Below, piece by piece: positions 29,770-42,011 of a stretch of DNA of 46,889 nt. Where the stretch lies: positions 1 to 46,889 of IMG/VR virus record IMGVR_UViG_3300047287_000229; one strand, 5' to 3'. The stretch comes from a virus. A model generated the notes under the pieces. That model saw nothing but the letters and a program-made list of their open reading frames with translations, was not told where the DNA came from and did not search any database. Numbering within the stretch: the stretch's first letter is position 1; each line of letters opens with the position of its first letter. The translations under genes and the position numbers were made by a program.

Positions 29770-30390
29770 TCAGGAATAGGTGTGGGAAGCGCGGCCGGTC
29801 CAGGTGACGCCAGCCGCTGTGCCTTTGCTGGTGCGGATGCCGGCTGCGTCGTAGATGCTGCGGGTGACGGTCCACCGTGCTGCCGATTCCGCTACGCCTT
29901 GCGGCGCCTTGCCGACGTAGATCGATCCAGCAGTGTCGGCATCCACCAGCACCTGATACTTCACCGACTCCTGCGGGTAGTTCGTGTCTACGTCAAAGGT
30001 TGCCGCGTTCGGCCTTGTCTGCAGGTCCACCCGCATCTGCGCACCAGGCCCCACACCACGCGGCACATTGATCAGCACCGCATTGCTGCCGGGATACGCC
30101 CAGATCAGCCGACCCGCCACCGTTTGCAGCGGTGTATCTCCTGACCAGTCCACCAGGTACAGGGTCCAGCGGTCGCCGGCCGTCTCCTGCCGGTACTGCA
30201 CAACCGGCACCGGCTCGGGATCCCGCACGATTACCACCTCCAACCCCTCAACCGTCGTACCCGGCGGCAGGCTCTCGCCTGCAGCGCGCACCGCAATGGC
30301 TGGCGTGGTGGCACCGTTCGCCAGCCGGTACGTGCCGAGCACATCCGTTAGCACGGTCTCCAGTTGAACCCTGATGTCGCGGATGTTCAT
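29770..30390 (-). CDS. Tail-region structural protein
   Basis: 206 residues. The N-terminus is helical (IRDIRVQLETVLTDVLG), then beta-rich with WTLYLVDWSG and IYVGKAPQGVAESAARWTVTR, ending in a beta segment. It is likely a virion component at the tail tip, judged from its place between the chaperone-like gene and the fibre. The start ATG is 5 nt after AACCT and overlaps the upstream stop. Confidence 0.55.
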   Translation of the reverse strand: MNIRDIRVQLETVLTDVLGTYRLANGATTPAIAVRAAGESLPPGTTVEGLEVVIVRDPEPVPVVQYRQETAGDRWTLYLVDWSGDTPLQTVAGRLIWAYPGSNAVLINVPRGVGPGAQMRVDLQTRPNAATFDVDTNYPQESVKYQVLVDADTAGSIYVGKAPQGVAESAARWTVTRSIYDAAGIRTSKGTAAGVTWTGRASHTYS

Positions 30391-31034
30391 GGCGTAGGTT
30401 CCCCGGCCAGCAAGAGGTCAGCTTCCAACCATCCAAACCCCTCCCGCTTGGGAAGCCGTACCTCATGCCGGCATAACGGCCGGTCCAGCTCCCGCACCGT
30501 GACCGGTCCGCTGATCTGCCCGCGCACCACCACCAGGCCGCCGCGTACGTTCCGCCCCTCCCATCGGGGCGCCAGCACCCATACTGCGTCGTCATCGCTG
30601 CGTAGGGCCCGCACAGCCGGCACCGTGGCGCCTGGCTTGCTGGCAGCCAGCACGTCAGGCCAAATGCTGATCACCAGCGGCGGGCAGTGGTCCTCGTGCC
30701 GTAGGGCGAGTGCCACAGCCGCCACCTCAGCGCTGAGCCCATCGGGCTGCTCTTGCTCGCGGAAGAAGCAGAACTGCTCGGTGGTGAAGGCTGCGCTCTT
30801 GGCCGGGTCGAGGTGGACGTTGGCCATCAGGGCCGTCAGCTGCGCCACGGGCAGCTCCCCAATGCTGGCCTGCTGCCGCTGGATCTGCTGCAGCTCCTCG
30901 TATGCCGCCAGTACCACTGCCCTCAGCTCGCTGCCGTAGGTGCCTCGATGGAAGGCTCCGGGATAGGCATGGCACAGGCGCCAGAAGAGCTGCCCCCAGT
31001 CGGTCGCCTGCCTCTCCCATTGTCCGGCTGCTGC
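30387..31034 (-). CDS. Minus-one-frame part of the tail assembly chaperone
   Basis: This open frame has no ATG before its conserved-looking sequence. Reading from the A AAA AAG site it runs AAGQWERQATDWGQLFW, then LCHAYPGAFHRGTYG and AVVLAAYEELQ, to the stop at 30387 (215 codons). It gives a roughly 390-residue fusion with the upstream frame. A GTG at 30917 could start a shorter product but would drop the first 39 codons, which clearly read as protein. This is the GT-type extension of a tail chaperone that loads the tube protein on the tape measure. Confidence 0.65.
   Translation of the reverse strand, partial: AAAGQWERQATDWGQLFWRLCHAYPGAFHRGTYGSELRAVVLAAYEELQQIQRQQASIGELPVAQLTALMANVHLDPAKSAAFTTEQFCFFREQEQPDGLSAEVAAVALALRHEDHCPPLVISIWPDVLAASKPGATVPAVRALRSDDDAVWVLAPRWEGRNVRGGLVVVRGQISGPVTVRELDRPLCRHEVRLPKREGFGWLEADLLLAGEPTP
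30396..30404 (-). promoter_or_regulatory. Element B half-site
   Basis: On the minus strand CCGGGGAACCTACGCC precedes ATG 30390; AACCT ends exactly 5 nt before the start. It also encodes the last codons of the upstream gene. Confidence 0.4.
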
Positions 31035-31558
31035 TTTTTTAGCTCTTCCTCGCTGGGGCGGTTATCCGGCAGATTCTCGGCTGCCTGCTCGTCCTGGATC
31101 AGCTGCCAGATGTCCGTCAGCAGCACGCGCGCCAGCGTGCCCGTATCGGCCATGGACCAGCTAGGTCGGGCCAGCCGGTGGCGGATGATAGCCGTGATGC
31201 TGGCCTCCATCGTGCGCTGGCCGGCGACCGAGTAGCAGCGGACAACCTGCTCGATGCGGCTGGCATGACGGATGCGGATCGCTTCTGCCGCTGGTTCCAG
31301 TGTGGCGCCATTGATGGCCTGCTCCACGATGGCGAACGCTTCGGAGATGGAGATGCTTTCCTCAGTGGCGATAGCGTCTGCCAGCTGCGCACCCTTGACG
31401 AACGCAGACTGATCGTTGGCCAGCAGTTCCGAGATGGTGTCCGACTCGTTGACCGTCAGGCCCCCCAGTACTGGAATCTCAAGGATGCCGGAGTCAAGAG
31501 TGCCGACGCGACGCGGCGGATGCTGCCGTGGTGCGACAACAAAAGGCAGGCTGGACAT
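30923..31558 (-). CDS. Tail assembly chaperone, zero-frame product (G-like)
   Basis: 211 residues. The N-terminal region (VGTLDSGILEIPVLGGLTV, then ESDTISELL) and the helical middle resemble tail assembly chaperones. Near the end, after SEEELKK, the zero frame turns into a low-complexity tail (GRGRRPTGGSSSGACAMP), while the minus-one frame stays protein-like. Codons CTA AAA AAG (31042-31034) form the canonical slippery heptamer. In most siphoviruses this gene lies between tube and tape measure; here it is about 6 kb beyond the tape measure, which is unusual. Confidence 0.65.
   Translation of the reverse strand: MSSLPFVVAPRQHPPRRVGTLDSGILEIPVLGGLTVNESDTISELLANDQSAFVKGAQLADAIATEESISISEAFAIVEQAINGATLEPAAEAIRIRHASRIEQVVRCYSVAGQRTMEASITAIIRHRLARPSWSMADTGTLARVLLTDIWQLIQDEQAAENLPDNRPSEEELKKQQPDNGRGRRPTGGSSSGACAMPIPEPSIEAPTAAS
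31034..31040 (-). promoter_or_regulatory. A AAA AAG ribosomal slippery site
   Basis: The heptamer is in phase as ctA AAA AAG within the 211-residue frame, and a minus-one shift enters the frame ending at 30387. A GC-rich sequence follows that could form a stimulating structure. The heptamer type is one of the most efficient in bacteria. Confidence 0.7.
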
Positions 31559-31694: not shown

Positions 31695-32974
31695 GGCGTC
31701 AGGTCGGCGGAGCTGAACCCAAGAGCAAGCGCCATCGCCTGGCAATAGGCAGCGCTGGCGCCAAGGGTGGAATAATCCAGCTTGCGCCGGCGAGCTGAAT
31801 AGATGGTGGTGTGATCTGCTGGCTCGGTGACGCCACGAGCGACGCTGTAGTCATAACGAGGCGCCGATACGGAAGTCTCGTAGTCGTCGGTGCGGTTGGT
31901 GTAGTAGGCGTAGAGCCAGGTGGCCTCGGTTACATCAGTGTTGGTGCGTGAGCCGTCGTCATAGAAGAACAGCTTGTAGGCAGGAGAGCCGGGGGTGAGC
32001 AACGCGTCTACACCGTTGTCGGTGGCAAACGTGTTGAGCGTGGCATAAATGCGCGGGTCGCAGAACGACTCGGCAAGACTTGGAATGGTGCCGTACTCGT
32101 AGTAATACGGGTTATAGGGCACCGTATAGGATCCGGTATAGTCTGGCCAATTGGGATATACGGTGAACACGCCAGTCGCTTCTGATGGCTCGGGATTCAG
32201 CAGCGCCAGCAGAGGCTGGAGCTTGGCAGGAACTGACACCTCACGCACAGCGGTCTGCGTGCAAACGTAGGCATTGAAGAAGCGCTGCTTTGACCGTGAT
32301 GTTGAGGCAACATCTGTGACGCGAAACGCTTCAGGATGCTGGTCTGCATAGATGCGCATCTCCACCTCTGACCACGCATCATCATTGCTGGCTACCACCA
32401 GCTTGCTTGTAAGCTCATAGTTGAAGGTGAACCGATAACCCATCGTCACCAGCAGAAACGCTCCAGGGCCCAGCGGTAGGGCGATGTAACGGGGATCAAA
32501 CGATACGGCGCTGCGGTCTCGGTAGTTGGCTCGAAGCTGAGTGACCACGCCGCCATTGGCTGAGAGCACCTCCTTAATGATGGACTCATTAACGTTCTCG
32601 CCTATTACCGTCCGAGTGATGGCAGCATACGGGCCGCCTCCAGCACTGGGAGGAAGGTAGCCAGTGCTATAGACGCCGTCGTAATAGCCAGTGCCTTGGA
32701 TTGAATCGCTATCCGTTACCCAGTTGTCGTACCAGACATGGCCTAGGGTCACCAGATCATCCAGTCTTGAGGCCGCTGGCTCATCGCGACGCGACTGGCC
32801 AAGCCGGCGCGTTGATGGCTCCTCAGGCTTGGCCGCTTGTGCCTTCCGGATCTCTGCTGCCGTTCGGCGCTGCTCGTCGCCCTCCACTTTCTGCAGCCGG
32901 TTGCCTTGCACCTGATCACGGTTGCGGCGCAGTAGCTCTGACTCAGCAGGGGTGACTTTGATGAACGTGGCCAT
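31691..32974 (-). CDS. Virion protein, tail module, unknown
   Basis: 427 residues. The first about 75 are charged and helical (ESELLRRNRDQVQGNRL, EQRRTAAEIRKAQ). The rest is rich in Tyr, Thr and Asp (YDNWVTDSDSIQGTGYYDG, PYNPYYYEYGTIP), typical of a beta-rich surface or receptor-contacting virion protein. It overlaps the upstream gene by one base. No family is recognised. Confidence 0.6.
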   Translation of the reverse strand: MATFIKVTPAESELLRRNRDQVQGNRLQKVEGDEQRRTAAEIRKAQAAKPEEPSTRRLGQSRRDEPAASRLDDLVTLGHVWYDNWVTDSDSIQGTGYYDGVYSTGYLPPSAGGGPYAAITRTVIGENVNESIIKEVLSANGGVVTQLRANYRDRSAVSFDPRYIALPLGPGAFLLVTMGYRFTFNYELTSKLVVASNDDAWSEVEMRIYADQHPEAFRVTDVASTSRSKQRFFNAYVCTQTAVREVSVPAKLQPLLALLNPEPSEATGVFTVYPNWPDYTGSYTVPYNPYYYEYGTIPSLAESFCDPRIYATLNTFATDNGVDALLTPGSPAYKLFFYDDGSRTNTDVTEATWLYAYYTNRTDDYETSVSAPRYDYSVARGVTEPADHTTIYSARRRKLDYSTLGASAAYCQAMALALGFSSADLTP

Positions 32975-33381
32975 CAGTCATCCGTGTTGAGGCTGATGCG
33001 ATACGTCTGCGTTTGACCAGCCACAAGGACAATGTTGGGTGACTCGGTGATGACGCTATGCGGATACGTTGCGCCATTGATGTAGACGACCACCGTGTCA
33101 TAGGTGAAACCGCTGCCGCTGGCGGTAAAGATAGCGTCATAGTCAGGCAGCTCATAGCGTGCCGTAGACGAGTTGTAGGAGCCAACGCCTACGGTGGTTG
33201 AAGCTCTGACGTAGCCATTACTGGAGGCAAGCTCCACGCTTTGCCAGTTGCTGACGGTGCTGCTGCTGGTGTAGCCAGTCGCGCCGACATTGCACAGCAT
33301 CACCTTAAGGGTTTCGCCCTCATAGGCCAGCTCTGCAACGCGCTGCAGCTCCTTGATGCTCAGCGATACGGTGAGCGCCAT
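32974..33381 (-). CDS. Small tail-associated structural protein
   Basis: 135 residues. After a short helix (SIKELQRVAELAYEGETL) it is beta-rich (VMLCNVGATGYTSSSTV, then YDTVVVYINGATYP). It pairs with the 143-residue gene upstream, which has the same length and style. Probably a tail or decoration protein; no precise family. Confidence 0.55.
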   Translation of the reverse strand: MALTVSLSIKELQRVAELAYEGETLKVMLCNVGATGYTSSSTVSNWQSVELASSNGYVRASTTVGVGSYNSSTARYELPDYDAIFTASGSGFTYDTVVVYINGATYPHSVITESPNIVLVAGQTQTYRISLNTDD

Positions 33382-33383
33382 GA

Positions 33384-33815
33384 TCAGGCCACCGTAAACG
33401 TGAAGATGCCGGAAGCATTCCAGACAATTTTGAAGTCGGTGCCGTCCCCAGCCGTCTCGGTAGCGCCGAAGTCGATGAAGGCAAGCGGTGGGCTGTTCGT
33501 GTCCGTGGAGTTGTAGAGAATGCCGTAGGCCGCTGCAATGCTGCCGCCACTGGCCGTCCAGGTCACGTCGCTGGCGTCAAACATGGCGTCATTGGTGGTG
33601 ACAGTCGTCACCGACACGCCAGAGAGCGTTGCGCCCCCCGTCGTGTAGCCGTAGGCGTTGGCCACCTCAGTGCCGCCGGTTGCGGCCAAAGTGGTGTGAG
33701 CTGCCGAGAACGTCGCCGCCGTCAGCAGCTTCACTTTGTACGTGTCAGCAGCGGCGTTGCTTCCATCGGCAAACAGCTTTGCTGTGTGGTTGTAAACGCT
33801 GATCGTGACGGCCAT
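33384..33815 (-). CDS. Small virion protein of a widespread phage type
   Basis: 143 residues. MAVTISVYNHTAKLFADG, YKVKLLTAATFSAAHTTL, GYTTGGATLSG and GDGTDFKIVWNASGIFTF form a pattern seen in many tailed-phage structural genomes (small beta-rich protein of unknown role). The ATG is exactly 20 nt after AACCT of the element at 33836. It lies directly downstream of the tail-tip gene. Confidence 0.6.
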   Translation of the reverse strand: MAVTISVYNHTAKLFADGSNAAADTYKVKLLTAATFSAAHTTLAATGGTEVANAYGYTTGGATLSGVSVTTVTTNDAMFDASDVTWTASGGSIAAAYGILYNSTDTNSPPLAFIDFGATETAGDGTDFKIVWNASGIFTFTVA

Positions 33816-37601: not shown

Positions 37602-40097
37602 TCAGACGACGGGGAGGGGAATGGGCGTGGCTTGGCCGCCACTACTGAGATTGACGGTCCAGTCCTTTCCTGTTAACGCTTCTGTAGCCGAAATGTTTTT
37701 GTCTATTGCCGTTTTTAGTGCTTGCTGACTACCGCTAAGACTTTCCGCAAATCCTGCAACTCTAAATAGTTTCTCGGGAGTGCTGATGTCAATTCCTGTC
37801 TTGATGATGCCATTGTCAACAAGCGGTTGTATTGCCGCTCGTGCTTTGCTGGTTTGCTCGCGCTGCAGTTGAGGCGTTAAAAGCTCAAAGCCACCTCGCA
37901 ACGTCTGGTCTAACGACTTTGCAGCTTTATCAAGTCCGTCAGAAGCATCCAATAAATTTGAGCCTGCCTCTTTTAATTTTGCAGCGGCTTCGTCGTTTTT
38001 TGATTTCATTGCTGCGGCTATAGAGTTTTTGCCTTCAGCGCGAGCCACGTCCACATTGATAACTGCAACATCTACAGCGGTTTGCAGTTGCCGCAGCTTA
38101 ATGGGGTCACGTTTGGAGTTTTCTTCTTTCCTAAGCGCTGCCCTCGCTTCTTCCACTGCTCGTATTTTTTCATTAACACTGAACTCTCTTTCAAGTCGTG
38201 CAATGCCAACTTCATCAAGAACGCCTTTAGCAGTTGCTAGCTTAAGGCGATCCTGCAGGTTGCGAAGCTCCGATGCAGACAGCTGATTGGCAAGCGCAAT
38301 GTTGGCGGCTTGATTTGGGTCAACAGGGGTTGGCGTAGTTACGGGTGCAACTTTTGGTTTTGCCGGCGGCATTTCTTGAGGTGCAGGTCCATACCATCCA
38401 AATAGATTCTTTGATTGTAGTGGCGGCAATTCACGGGGCGCTGGTCCATACCATGCACCCTTTGAAAGATCGGGCTTTGCTGATATTGCAGGCTTTATTC
38501 CCGACTGCTTCGGTTGCGCCGAAGTTGCTGCGGGTGTTGGCACATTTACCGATGCTTTAACTGGCTTGTTAATTGCTTCCAAGTCTTTCTGAAGCAGATA
38601 CTTCACCAGCTCATTCCTGACGCCGGTGATGGTGCCCTTAAAAGTCTTGCCATCAACCACAATCTCAGTGTACGGCGACACCAACGGCGTGCCGTAAAAC
38701 GCTCTGGTGTTGTAGTTGGGTGAATTCTGCTTGACGGTATCAATGATCCGTGTGGCCTGCTCCTCGCGCGCCTTTACTTTTTCTGGCGACAGCGCCGACA
38801 CTTGTTGCAGCTTGGTAAGAATGTCATTCAAGCCGCCAATCAAGTCGGCAAACACCGGCTTTAGCGTCTTGTCCAGCGTGGTCGCCAGGTTGGAGAAGCC
38901 ATTGCCGATCTGCGTCAATCCGCCGCTGATTGTTTCGGAGTTGATCTTGGCAGCCGCTGCCGCTGCTCCAGACGACTGGGCTTGCTTACCCAAAAGCTCG
39001 TTGTACTTGACGAGTTTGTCATTCAGTAACGGCTGCACAGCGGCCTGAGCTTCAACGCTGCCAAGCAACACCGCCAACTTATCGGTAGCGCCGCCAGTCT
39101 TTGCCTGCACATCTGAAAGTACACCGGCGAAGCCTTTGGATTGAAGTGCAGCCACGCTGTAATCCAGCCCCAGCGAACGCGCCAGATCCTTGGCCTGCTC
39201 GCTTGGCTTGATGATGCTGCTGAGTGCCTGGCGTATGCCTGTAAAGGTCTGCGCAACTGGCACACCGCGCAGGGTGGCCGTGGCGATGGCCGCATTCAAC
39301 TCCTGCAAGCTGACACCACTAGCTGCCGCAATGCTGGCGACGTTGCCGATCTCGGCGGCGTACTGGCGCACCGTGATCACACCATCATTTTGCGTTTGCA
39401 GGAAAGTGTCAACGATATTGGTTGCTTGATCAGCGGAAAGCCCGTAGGCGTTCAGCACGCCGGTAACAGCTTGCACTACGTCATTTAGTTCCGCAAATCC
39501 GCCTTTGGCTCCTAACGATGCCGCTCGCAGCACTTGCGTGGCATCGCCAGCGCTAGCAAAGCCGGAGCTGGCCACGTCGTAGGCGGCCTTTGTCAGCTCA
39601 ATCACGCTGACACTGCCGCCTAGCTCTGTTGATAATGCCCGCAGCCTAGTCGTCAGCTCGTCGCTGTTCACCCCCAGCGTGCGCACTGCTGCAGATGCAG
39701 AATCAAGGTCTTGTGTTTGCTGAGCGGCAAAGACTACAACTCGTCTAATCGTCTCAAATAATGCAATCTGCGCGCCAAGTTTGCCAAGCGCAATCCCCAA
39801 ACGATCAAAACCACCAACCGATTCACCCGCCGCAGCTCCAACACCCTTAAGCCCCGCCTCCTGCAGCTGAAGGCTGGTTACAAACTTGCCCGACGCATCC
39901 CGCGCCCTGCCCTGCGCGTCGATGTAATATTGCAGGCCGTTGGCGGCTGTTTGCAGCTCTTTCCCGCCCTTGGAAAAAGCTTGGCCAACTGACTGACCCG
40001 TTTGCTCTGCCTGCTGCTTAGCTCGCTGCAGCCCTGCATTCAGCGCCTGATCATCTACCGATAGCTTGAGTACGGCTTCCCCGAGCTGTTCCGCCAC
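37602..40097 (-). CDS. Tail tape measure protein
   Basis: 831 residues. Residues 1-60 are coiled coil. About 80-370 match the TP901-type tape-measure domain (AYDVASSGFASAGDATQVL, LNAYGLSADQATNIVDTFL, TGIRQALSSIIKPSEQAKDLA). A Pro-rich middle contains the repeated motif WYGPAPxExPP twice, and the C-terminus is helical. It sets tail length; at about 0.15 nm per residue this suggests a tail near 125 nm. The C-terminal DNA (37640-38580) is AT-rich. The ATG lies exactly 20 nt after AACCT of the palindrome at 40118. No sheath gene is seen, so the tail is non-contractile. Confidence 0.9.
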   Translation of the reverse strand: MAEQLGEAVLKLSVDDQALNAGLQRAKQQAEQTGQSVGQAFSKGGKELQTAANGLQYYIDAQGRARDASGKFVTSLQLQEAGLKGVGAAAGESVGGFDRLGIALGKLGAQIALFETIRRVVVFAAQQTQDLDSASAAVRTLGVNSDELTTRLRALSTELGGSVSVIELTKAAYDVASSGFASAGDATQVLRAASLGAKGGFAELNDVVQAVTGVLNAYGLSADQATNIVDTFLQTQNDGVITVRQYAAEIGNVASIAAASGVSLQELNAAIATATLRGVPVAQTFTGIRQALSSIIKPSEQAKDLARSLGLDYSVAALQSKGFAGVLSDVQAKTGGATDKLAVLLGSVEAQAAVQPLLNDKLVKYNELLGKQAQSSGAAAAAAKINSETISGGLTQIGNGFSNLATTLDKTLKPVFADLIGGLNDILTKLQQVSALSPEKVKAREEQATRIIDTVKQNSPNYNTRAFYGTPLVSPYTEIVVDGKTFKGTITGVRNELVKYLLQKDLEAINKPVKASVNVPTPAATSAQPKQSGIKPAISAKPDLSKGAWYGPAPRELPPLQSKNLFGWYGPAPQEMPPAKPKVAPVTTPTPVDPNQAANIALANQLSASELRNLQDRLKLATAKGVLDEVGIARLEREFSVNEKIRAVEEARAALRKEENSKRDPIKLRQLQTAVDVAVINVDVARAEGKNSIAAAMKSKNDEAAAKLKEAGSNLLDASDGLDKAAKSLDQTLRGGFELLTPQLQREQTSKARAAIQPLVDNGIIKTGIDISTPEKLFRVAGFAESLSGSQQALKTAIDKNISATEALTGKDWTVNLSSGGQATPIPLPVV

Positions 40098-40139: not shown

Positions 40140-40532
40140 ATGACATCAGCCCTTGCTGCACTGGCCAATGCGACGGCCGTGTTCACCCTGCCGACCGTTG
40201 GCACTACCACCGATGCCGTGACCGGGAACGTCCTGCCGGCGGAAGAGACGGCCACGGTGACGTTGTACCTCCGCCAAGGCTCGCCCCAGTCGGCCGGCCT
40301 GGAGGGCGTGGATGCGGACACTATCGTCTGCGAGGGGTATGCGGTGGAGCCTCAGGCCCTTGATGCCCGCATCAGGCCCGGCACCCGTGGGACGGTGACG
40401 ATGAGCGGTCGGGAGATGACCTGCGAGGTGCTGCAGGAACGCTTCCCGTACGGCAACACCGGCCTGCTGGGGACCACCCTGCAAAACATCCTGGGCGATC
40501 GGATCCGGCTGGCGGCGTACCTCCATGGCTGA
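40140..40532 (+). CDS. Putative head-closure / connector protein
   Basis: 130 residues. A beta-rich small protein (TVTLYLRQGSPQS, GTRGTVTMSGREMTCEVLQERFPYGNTG) with N-terminal helix, of the size and position of siphovirus head-completion proteins. It lies on the plus strand inside the minus-strand tail block, which is unusual, and overlaps the next gene by 8 bases. ATG 40140 is right after the palindrome. Homology was not verified. Confidence 0.5.
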   Translation: MTSALAALANATAVFTLPTVGTTTDAVTGNVLPAEETATVTLYLRQGSPQSAGLEGVDADTIVCEGYAVEPQALDARIRPGTRGTVTMSGREMTCEVLQERFPYGNTGLLGTTLQNILGDRIRLAAYLHG

Positions 40533-40971
40533 GATCAGCGCCAGCCTCAGCCTCAAGGGCTGGAATGCCCAACAACTGGCCCTGCGGATCCCCACCATCA
40601 TCCGCCGCTATGGCGACGTGATGGACAAGCAGCTCAAAGAAGAGATCAAGACGGTCCAGTTCCCATGGCCGCGCGAGACACGCCGCCGCAATGGCACCAC
40701 TGTGGGCAGCCCTCGGGACATTGTGGACCTTGGCACCTTCCTGCGATCCCAGCGACGGGACTACCCATCGGCTACCCAGCTGGTGTTCACATGGGATGCC
40801 AAAAGCAAGAAAGGCGGCTTTATGTATGCCGGCCTCATCCTGACCGGCTACACCACCAAGCGGGGCACCGTCGTCCCGGGCCGAAACTGGATCAAGTCAG
40901 CCCTCGACAAGCACCCCCTCGATAGCTTCTTTGTCCGTGAGTGGAAGAAGCTAGCCCGCAATGAGCTCTGA
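40525..40971 (+). CDS. Putative tail-completion / neck protein (gp10-like)
   Basis: 148 residues. It has the look of HK97-gp10-type neck proteins: an N-terminal helix (LALRIPTIIRRYGDVMDKQLKEEIK), a Pro/Arg loop, then a beta core with MYAGLILTGY and a WIKSALDKHPLDSFFVREWKKLA helix. The stop abuts the stop of the convergent tail-tube gene without a gap. It is coupled to the connector-like gene. Confidence 0.55.
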   Translation: MAEISASLSLKGWNAQQLALRIPTIIRRYGDVMDKQLKEEIKTVQFPWPRETRRRNGTTVGSPRDIVDLGTFLRSQRRDYPSATQLVFTWDAKSKKGGFMYAGLILTGYTTKRGTVVPGRNWIKSALDKHPLDSFFVREWKKLARNEL

Positions 40972-41442
40972 TCAGGAGTCAGTCTCGGCGGTCCAGGTGT
41001 AGGCGCCGTAGCCGTTGAGGGTGAAGCTCACCTTCGCCACGTTGCCGGCCTGAATGTCCTCCTGAAAGTTGGTCACGAAGGCGACGCCAGCGCACTTTTC
41101 AGGATTGCCGGTAGAAGTCATCTCAGGAGACTCCCGGTACCACTGCACGGTCACGCCATTGGTCGAATCAAGGCTGGCCTGCCGCAGGGTCTTGTAGCCC
41201 GCATCCCGCAGGTCAAGATTCATGCTCATCGGGATGGTGTAGCTCTGCTGCGTCGCCAGCGAAGACTTGAACCCGAAGGTGCTGCCGTAGTCCAGTACAT
41301 CCTGCGTATCGGTCTGGGCTTGGATGCCAGCGTTGGACAGGTTCAGCACCTCATCCATCCCAGTGCTGCTGCTCGGAGCAGAGCTGCTGGTGGTGCCAGC
41401 CTTGACGTAGAACTTGTAGCCAAGGGCGTTGAAGTAACCCAC
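40972..41442 (-). CDS. Tail tube (major tail) protein candidate
   Basis: 156 residues from GTG 41442, MGYFNALGYKFYVKAG onward. The part DVLDYGSTFGFKSSLATQQS, then SYTIPMSMNLDLRDAGYKTL and a beta-rich end (VAKVSFTLNGYGAYTWTA), fits major tail-tube proteins. A longer reading from 41511 would overlap the sigma-like gene and has no support. The start is 22 nt from AACCT at 41465. It lies on the tape-measure strand but is separated from that gene by the two opposite-strand genes. Confidence 0.65.
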   Translation of the reverse strand: MGYFNALGYKFYVKAGTTSSSAPSSSTGMDEVLNLSNAGIQAQTDTQDVLDYGSTFGFKSSLATQQSYTIPMSMNLDLRDAGYKTLRQASLDSTNGVTVQWYRESPEMTSTGNPEKCAGVAFVTNFQEDIQAGNVAKVSFTLNGYGAYTWTAETDS

Positions 41443-41462
41443 AACCTGAGGCGCGATGTGCC

Positions 41463-42011
41463 CTAGGTTTCCGAGGCCTCCAGCACCTCCCACGGTGTCG
41501 CCCGTGGGCACACGTGCAGGTCGAAGCCCATGGTGTCGTGGCTCATGCCACTGGTGGCCACCAGGCAGTCCCGCAGGTCATCGGCGCTGATGCTCAGCTC
41601 CTGGCACACCGCCTCAGCTGCCCAGCCCAGATCCATCAGCTTGCGTGCCCGCAGGCCCAGCTCTCGTGCGCGATGCGTGGCACCGATCGCCCAGTTGTGC
41701 GAGCGCAAGTAATGCAGCACCTCGCCCTGCGCGAACCGCCAGTAGATGGTGCTCAGCTTGCCCTTCTCCGGGTCCCAGGCACGGCACGCCTTCAGGAACG
41801 CGAAGTCGCAGCAGCTGTTGATGTCCTCCCGCGCCAGGCAGTGTCCGTACTGCTGGCTCAGCCGGTGGCTGAACTTGCGCACCAGGCCGATGTTCTGCGC
41901 ATACATCCGCCCGAACCGGCGCCGTTCCTCACGGCTCAGCGGGTCCGCAAGGTGCGGCTTGGGCTTCGCTGCCTCGTACTCACCAAAGAGAAGGAGTTGC
42001 AGCGCTGCCAT
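41463..42011 (-). CDS. Sigma-70-like RNA polymerase sigma factor
   Basis: 182 residues. Region 2 is recognisable: NIGLVRKFSHRLSQQYGH, then the REDINSCCDFAFLKACRAWD block and PEKGKLSTIYWRFAQGEVLHYLR (80-103), corresponding to the core-binding and -10-recognition helices. A weaker helical segment follows (GWAAEAVCQELSISADDLRDCL, about 129-150) in the place of region 3/4. It lies between connector and tail-tube genes, not in an early region. It could direct the host polymerase to phage promoters. The stop codon sits in an element B site. Confidence 0.75.
   Translation of the reverse strand: MAALQLLLFGEYEAAKPKPHLADPLSREERRRFGRMYAQNIGLVRKFSHRLSQQYGHCLAREDINSCCDFAFLKACRAWDPEKGKLSTIYWRFAQGEVLHYLRSHNWAIGATHRARELGLRARKLMDLGWAAEAVCQELSISADDLRDCLVATSGMSHDTMGFDLHVCPRATPWEVLEASET
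41465..41473 (-). promoter_or_regulatory. Element B half-site
   Basis: On the minus strand CGGAAACCTAGGGCACA lies 22 nt before the GTG of the tail-tube candidate, and the TAG in CCTAG is the stop of the sigma-like gene. Confidence 0.5.

Follow-up and report, generated by a model that had tools for sequence, protein, structure and literature searches.

How two overlapping reading frames on the minus strand of a virus might give one protein, and why a gene of this kind would lie so far from its usual place, are the questions raised by positions 30387 to 31558 of IMG/VR record IMGVR_UViG_3300047287_000229. The record was analyzed over its whole length of 46,889 nucleotides (nt), here called the window. 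The locus consists of an open reading frame (ORF), A, and an extension in the -1 frame, B. Sequence comparison suggested, with a probability of roughly 0.87, that A and B are a tail assembly chaperone pair of the lambda G/GT type made by -1 frameshifting. Frameshifting of this kind in tail chaperones is already well known (Xu et al., 2004, as cited in PMC5009743).

ORF A, the G-like zero frame of 211 amino acids (aa), was taken from the ORF listing (30923..31558, minus strand) and has homologues at 86 loci. The slippery heptamer A AAA AAG (31034..31040, minus strand) is directly preceded on its 5' side by a purine-rich stretch (31041..31050, minus strand). From 31034 the -1 frame stays open up to a stop at 30389-30387 and contains no ATG, GTG or TTG for 39 codons; a start scan placed its earliest possible start of its own at a GTG (30915..30917, minus strand). 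The putative T-like extension B (30387..31034, minus strand; 215 codons plus stop) was recognized from selection and from similarity to Phage_tail_T. An initial annotation, made from the sequence before any comparison, had reported an in-phase heptamer, a start-free stretch of 39 codons up to GTG 30917, and products of 211 and about 390 residues. Codon reading of the minus strand confirmed the phase (zero-frame codons CTA AAA AAG at 31042-31034), the start-free stretch was found as described, and the computed lengths were 211 and 390 aa (175 + 215). The junction peptide given there, KKAAGQWER, was wrong and should read KKAAAGQWER, with three alanines, within the junction LKKAAAGQWER. A total of 17 in-phase heptamers were detected in the 31 likely ORFs of the window, and only one exits its gene via the -1 frame. 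At the A AAA AAG of ORF A, the -1 frame outruns the gene by 177 codons.

Relatives were collected by scanning viral contigs with A and B and by tblastn for cultured cyanophages. This gave 86 distinct loci holding both frames, 84 from metagenomes and one each from the Prochlorococcus phage P-SS2 and the Synechococcus phage S-CRES1, while scans of genome contigs for A/B relatives found none. A and B stood in the -1 relation at all 86 loci, and all 86 carried an in-phase heptamer of the form X XXY YYZ at the same junction (57 with G GGA AAG, 29 with A AAA AAG). Lambda served as a control for heptamer detection, and its G GGA AAG was recovered. No locus had lost the heptamer while keeping both frames separately, the observation that had been named beforehand as speaking against a programmed frameshift.

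The last base of the codon before the heptamer fitted the slippery word at every one of the 86 loci. This codon was always CTA in the A-type metagenomic loci (GAA in S-CRES1) and always CTG, TTG or GTG in the G-type loci; the wobble base therefore covaries with the next codon. GGA and CTA are rare in these genes, accounting for 7% of Gly and 6% of Leu codons, respectively. For 36 non-redundant loci, treated as independent though they are not, codon choice alone had a nominal probability of 10^-52. In a phylogenetic tree of 76 A+B sequences from which the slip codons had been removed, at least nine switches of the heptamer word were inferred, three of them forced by well-supported branches. L001, a near copy of the window with the A type, and L003, with the G type, were sisters with a support of 100/99.

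These data also bear on transcriptional slippage, by which the polymerase rather than the ribosome would join the two frames on a run of A. The site in the window does hold six consecutive A. However, two thirds of the relatives have GGGAAAG, with runs of three at most, and each of the two words is an in-phase X XXY YYZ. The G-type site lacks a long single-base run, and transcriptional slippage is therefore not the shared mechanism. What is conserved is thus not a run prone to slippage, and this explanation was rejected as extremely unlikely.

Selection on the -1 frame was analyzed in 12 loci having a zero-frame stop 19 codons past the heptamer, using codons 21-35 of the -1 frame, which lie beyond that stop and ahead of any possible start. 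The ratio of nonsynonymous to synonymous polymorphism (pN/pS) over these codons was 0.51 in the -1 frame versus 1.22 and 1.36 in the other two frames. The low value within a start-free stretch indicates that it is translated in the -1 frame, and therefore by a route that only frameshifting provides. Alternatively, A and B could be separate genes, with B starting at GTG 30917 or nearby and the heptamer being incidental. GTG 30917 is preceded by a weak GAGG three bases upstream, and some Microbacterium phages appear to express both chaperone ORFs separately (PMC7302621). Against such a start, the -1 frame is conserved across the start-free stretch, the first start varies among relatives (36, 39, 40, 47, 55 and 58 codons), and the heptamer is kept at 86/86 loci; on these grounds a separate start of B was rejected as very improbable. 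Programmed -1 frameshifting, as claimed in the initial annotation, rather than chance or two separate genes, is strongly supported by the comparison of sequences, namely by the invariable heptamer and the coding signature of the -1 frame.

Single-fold z-scores downstream of the heptamer were mostly about 0. Hairpins just downstream had a median of -9.4 in the G type versus -6.7 in the A type; the nominal p of 0.004 ignores kinship, and no difference is claimed. A GAGG ending 7 nt 5' of the heptamer was present in most loci, where it encodes conserved Glu residues as well. The first of these Glu codons was GAG in 27 of 30 cases versus a background of 67%, a weak hint that the GAGG may act as an internal Shine-Dalgarno stimulator.

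In the proposed mechanism, ribosomes that do not slip would read ORF A to its stop and give the 211-aa product. Other ribosomes would slip back by one base, their tRNAs shifting in tandem on A AAA AAG (or on G GGA AAG, as many relatives have it), and would continue in the -1 frame to give the 390-aa A-B fusion. By analogy with lambda gpG/gpGT, tail assembly would be sensitive to the ratio of A-B to A, with the A part binding the tape measure protein and tube subunits being recruited by the B part.

The identity of the products was approached from B. The family Phage_tail_T (PF06223) matched 13 of 15 B members, and eight B members matched phrog_337, annotated as 'tail protein' (E 8.9e-6). ORF A had no family match, and a PDB sequence search with the A and B profiles gave no match. 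Structure prediction of both products, which had been suggested with the initial annotation, yielded AlphaFold2 models of low confidence without a PDB fold match and was uninformative; one unnamed viral predicted structure resembled A (E 8e-5). No other chaperone candidate was found between the tube and tape measure genes of the window. A chaperone role of A/B appears likely because of the Phage_tail_T likeness, the lack of a rival in the usual slot, and the position of the homologues in the Synechococcus phage S-CBS4 beside the tape measure gene. The tail-chaperone identity put forward earlier is in this way supported indirectly.

Several points weigh against a frameshifted chaperone pair. 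The best PF06223 score, 25.7 bits, is below the curated cut-off of 25.9, and hhalign gave no match to lambda G or lambda T, for which single lambda sequences were used. The AlphaFold2 models, built on 15-16 sequences, reached a predicted local distance difference test (pLDDT) of 58 and 51. RNAalifold found no conserved RNA structure downstream of the heptamer (6 pairs, -2.7 kcal/mol). A/B lies outside the usual slot between tube and tape measure genes, which is a hallmark for annotation and no functional requirement. The A-B fusion product is so far a prediction from comparison.

The tape measure protein is encoded at 37602..40097 (minus strand; PhageMin_Tail E 6e-26, phrog_991 E 1e-44) and the major tail (tube) protein at 40972..41511 (minus strand; phrog_38654 E 1e-14, phrog_1407). 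From the end of the tape measure ORF to the start of the A/B gene there are 6.0 kb, the tape measure being upstream in transcription order. In metagenomic relatives with a tape measure match, it was upstream of A/B in 52 of 52 and downstream in none. The location some 6 kb after the tape measure gene described in the initial annotation is thus real, and the displacement is fixed in the clade of the window. The location differs again in P-SS2, S-CRES1 and S-CBS4, and therefore the A/B family is positionally mobile.

This position allows a different function for a gene with the same frameshift, namely tail-tip or fibre assembly or some other role. A/B sits among tail-tip and fibre-like genes, it resembles the lambda T family weakly, and its neighbour gene (29770..30390, minus strand), found in 76 loci as well as in P-SS2 and S-CRES1, has as its P-SS2 homologue gp066, a virion protein. 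The S-CBS4 homologues, however, are directly before the tape measure, the window offers no other chaperone candidate between tube and tape measure, and the homologues are missing from the P-SS2 virion proteome, which makes such a role improbable. A further proposal keeps the chaperone and supposes that the clade has permanently uncoupled it from the tube/tape-measure block and relocated it to the tail-tip region, where its role in assembly may be new or wider, with repeated swaps between two slippery words, expected to differ in strength, keeping the ratio of products; we regard this as speculative and rather doubtful. A tail terminator function was suspected for the neighbour gene at 29770-30390, and no family or structure match was found for it.

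The usual chaperone slot of the window is occupied by a pair of plus-strand genes (40140-40532 and 40525-40971; together 40140..40971), which leave 42 bases before the tape measure gene. In 37 and 30 relatives, respectively, the two genes have the same inverted orientation. The second weakly matches an S-CBS4 protein encoded upstream of the chaperone, and a direct comparison of the pair with the neck proteins of the cyanophage KBS-S-2A gave no match. From the position and the weak S-CBS4 match, the pair presumably encodes neck or connector proteins. Being kept inverted inside a tail operon in dozens of relatives, the pair must need its own transcription.

Two other loci of the window were recorded. 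The head-tail adaptor gene and the tube gene flank an ORF for a small sigma-factor-like protein (41463-42011, minus strand; Sigma70_r2 E 1.7e-4, phrog sigma factor 8e-9); the end of this ORF overlaps the tube gene, and its product is possibly a regulator of phage late genes. Two adjacent small paralogues (32974-33381 and 33384-33815, minus strand), both matching phrog_644 (function unassigned), are conserved upstream of the chaperone gene across most of the relatives.

Picocyanobacteria are the probable hosts of the virus, judged from the cultured phages in which relatives of A/B and of its tape measure occur. Tail chaperones are usually recognized by a position between tube and tape measure genes together with a slippery site. 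The A/B family violates the position rule clade-wide and has therefore been overlooked in annotation; the records of P-SS2, S-CRES1 and S-CBS4 have no joined gene annotated. In the open literature, most subscription papers being outside the search, neither a frameshifting chaperone gene after the tape measure nor frameshifting in the A/B cyanophage family was reported. The device is known, the family is divergent and unannotated, and the genomic arrangement is new. The repeated replacement of one word by the other, G GGA AAG or A AAA AAG, at a single homologous position offers a natural series on how the ratio of short to long chaperone is controlled in phages that use cyanobacterial ribosomes. 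The arrangement also probes whether chaperone, tube and tape measure must be produced side by side for tail assembly.

Like lambda gpG/gpGT, A/B is expected to give a short product plus a longer one by frameshifting, and G GGA AAG, the heptamer of lambda, is also the word found most often in the relatives of the window. However, the lambda parts have 140 and 144 aa versus 211 and 215 here, and the lambda gene is located between tube and tape measure and not 6 kb after the tape measure. The S-CBS4 proteins gp032/gp033 are more distant homologues of A and B, with hhalign probabilities of 97.7% (A) and 92.9% (B, against the -1 extension); as a control, a chaperone-like ORF of KBS-S-2A gave 0.15%. 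S-CBS4 has an in-phase A AAA AAA that is not annotated as a frameshift, and its pair, unlike A/B of the window and alone among the homologous pairs compared, is in the canonical slot directly before the tape measure.

KBS-S-2A and another cyanophage, MED4-184, have tape measures related to that of the window, but short chaperone-like ORFs precede them in the canonical slot. These ORFs belong to a different, shorter family. The KBS-S-2A ORF has no profile match to A/B and carries an in-phase A AAA AAC followed by TAA, also unannotated as a frameshift. In the homologous S-CRES1 pair gp72/gp73, an in-phase A AAA AAG lies at the junction and gp73 is annotated as 'tail assembly protein'; the pair differs from that of the window by its location before the tube gene, upstream of the tape measure. 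A TAA zero-frame stop directly after the heptamer was observed in S-CRES1 (L021:14561-14570) and KBS-S-2A (L151:9093-9102), and could raise the slip frequency.

P-SS2 gp064/gp065 is likewise a homologous pair with an in-phase G GGA AAG at the junction, and as in S-CRES1 the neighbour gene beside A/B is kept and the frameshift is unannotated. In this distant relative the tape measure follows the pair after about 18 kb, unlike in the window. Lambda gpG and gpGT are missing from virions (PMC5009743), and the virion proteome of P-SS2 lists ORFs 061-063 and 066-069 without the A/B homologues 064/065 (PMC2784084). This absence fits chaperones that leave the virion, while being weak evidence on its own. 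In this cultured phage with a studied proteome, the unannotated G GGA AAG frameshift joins two hypothetical proteins (L020:14001-15223); gp064/gp065 is a good experimental model.
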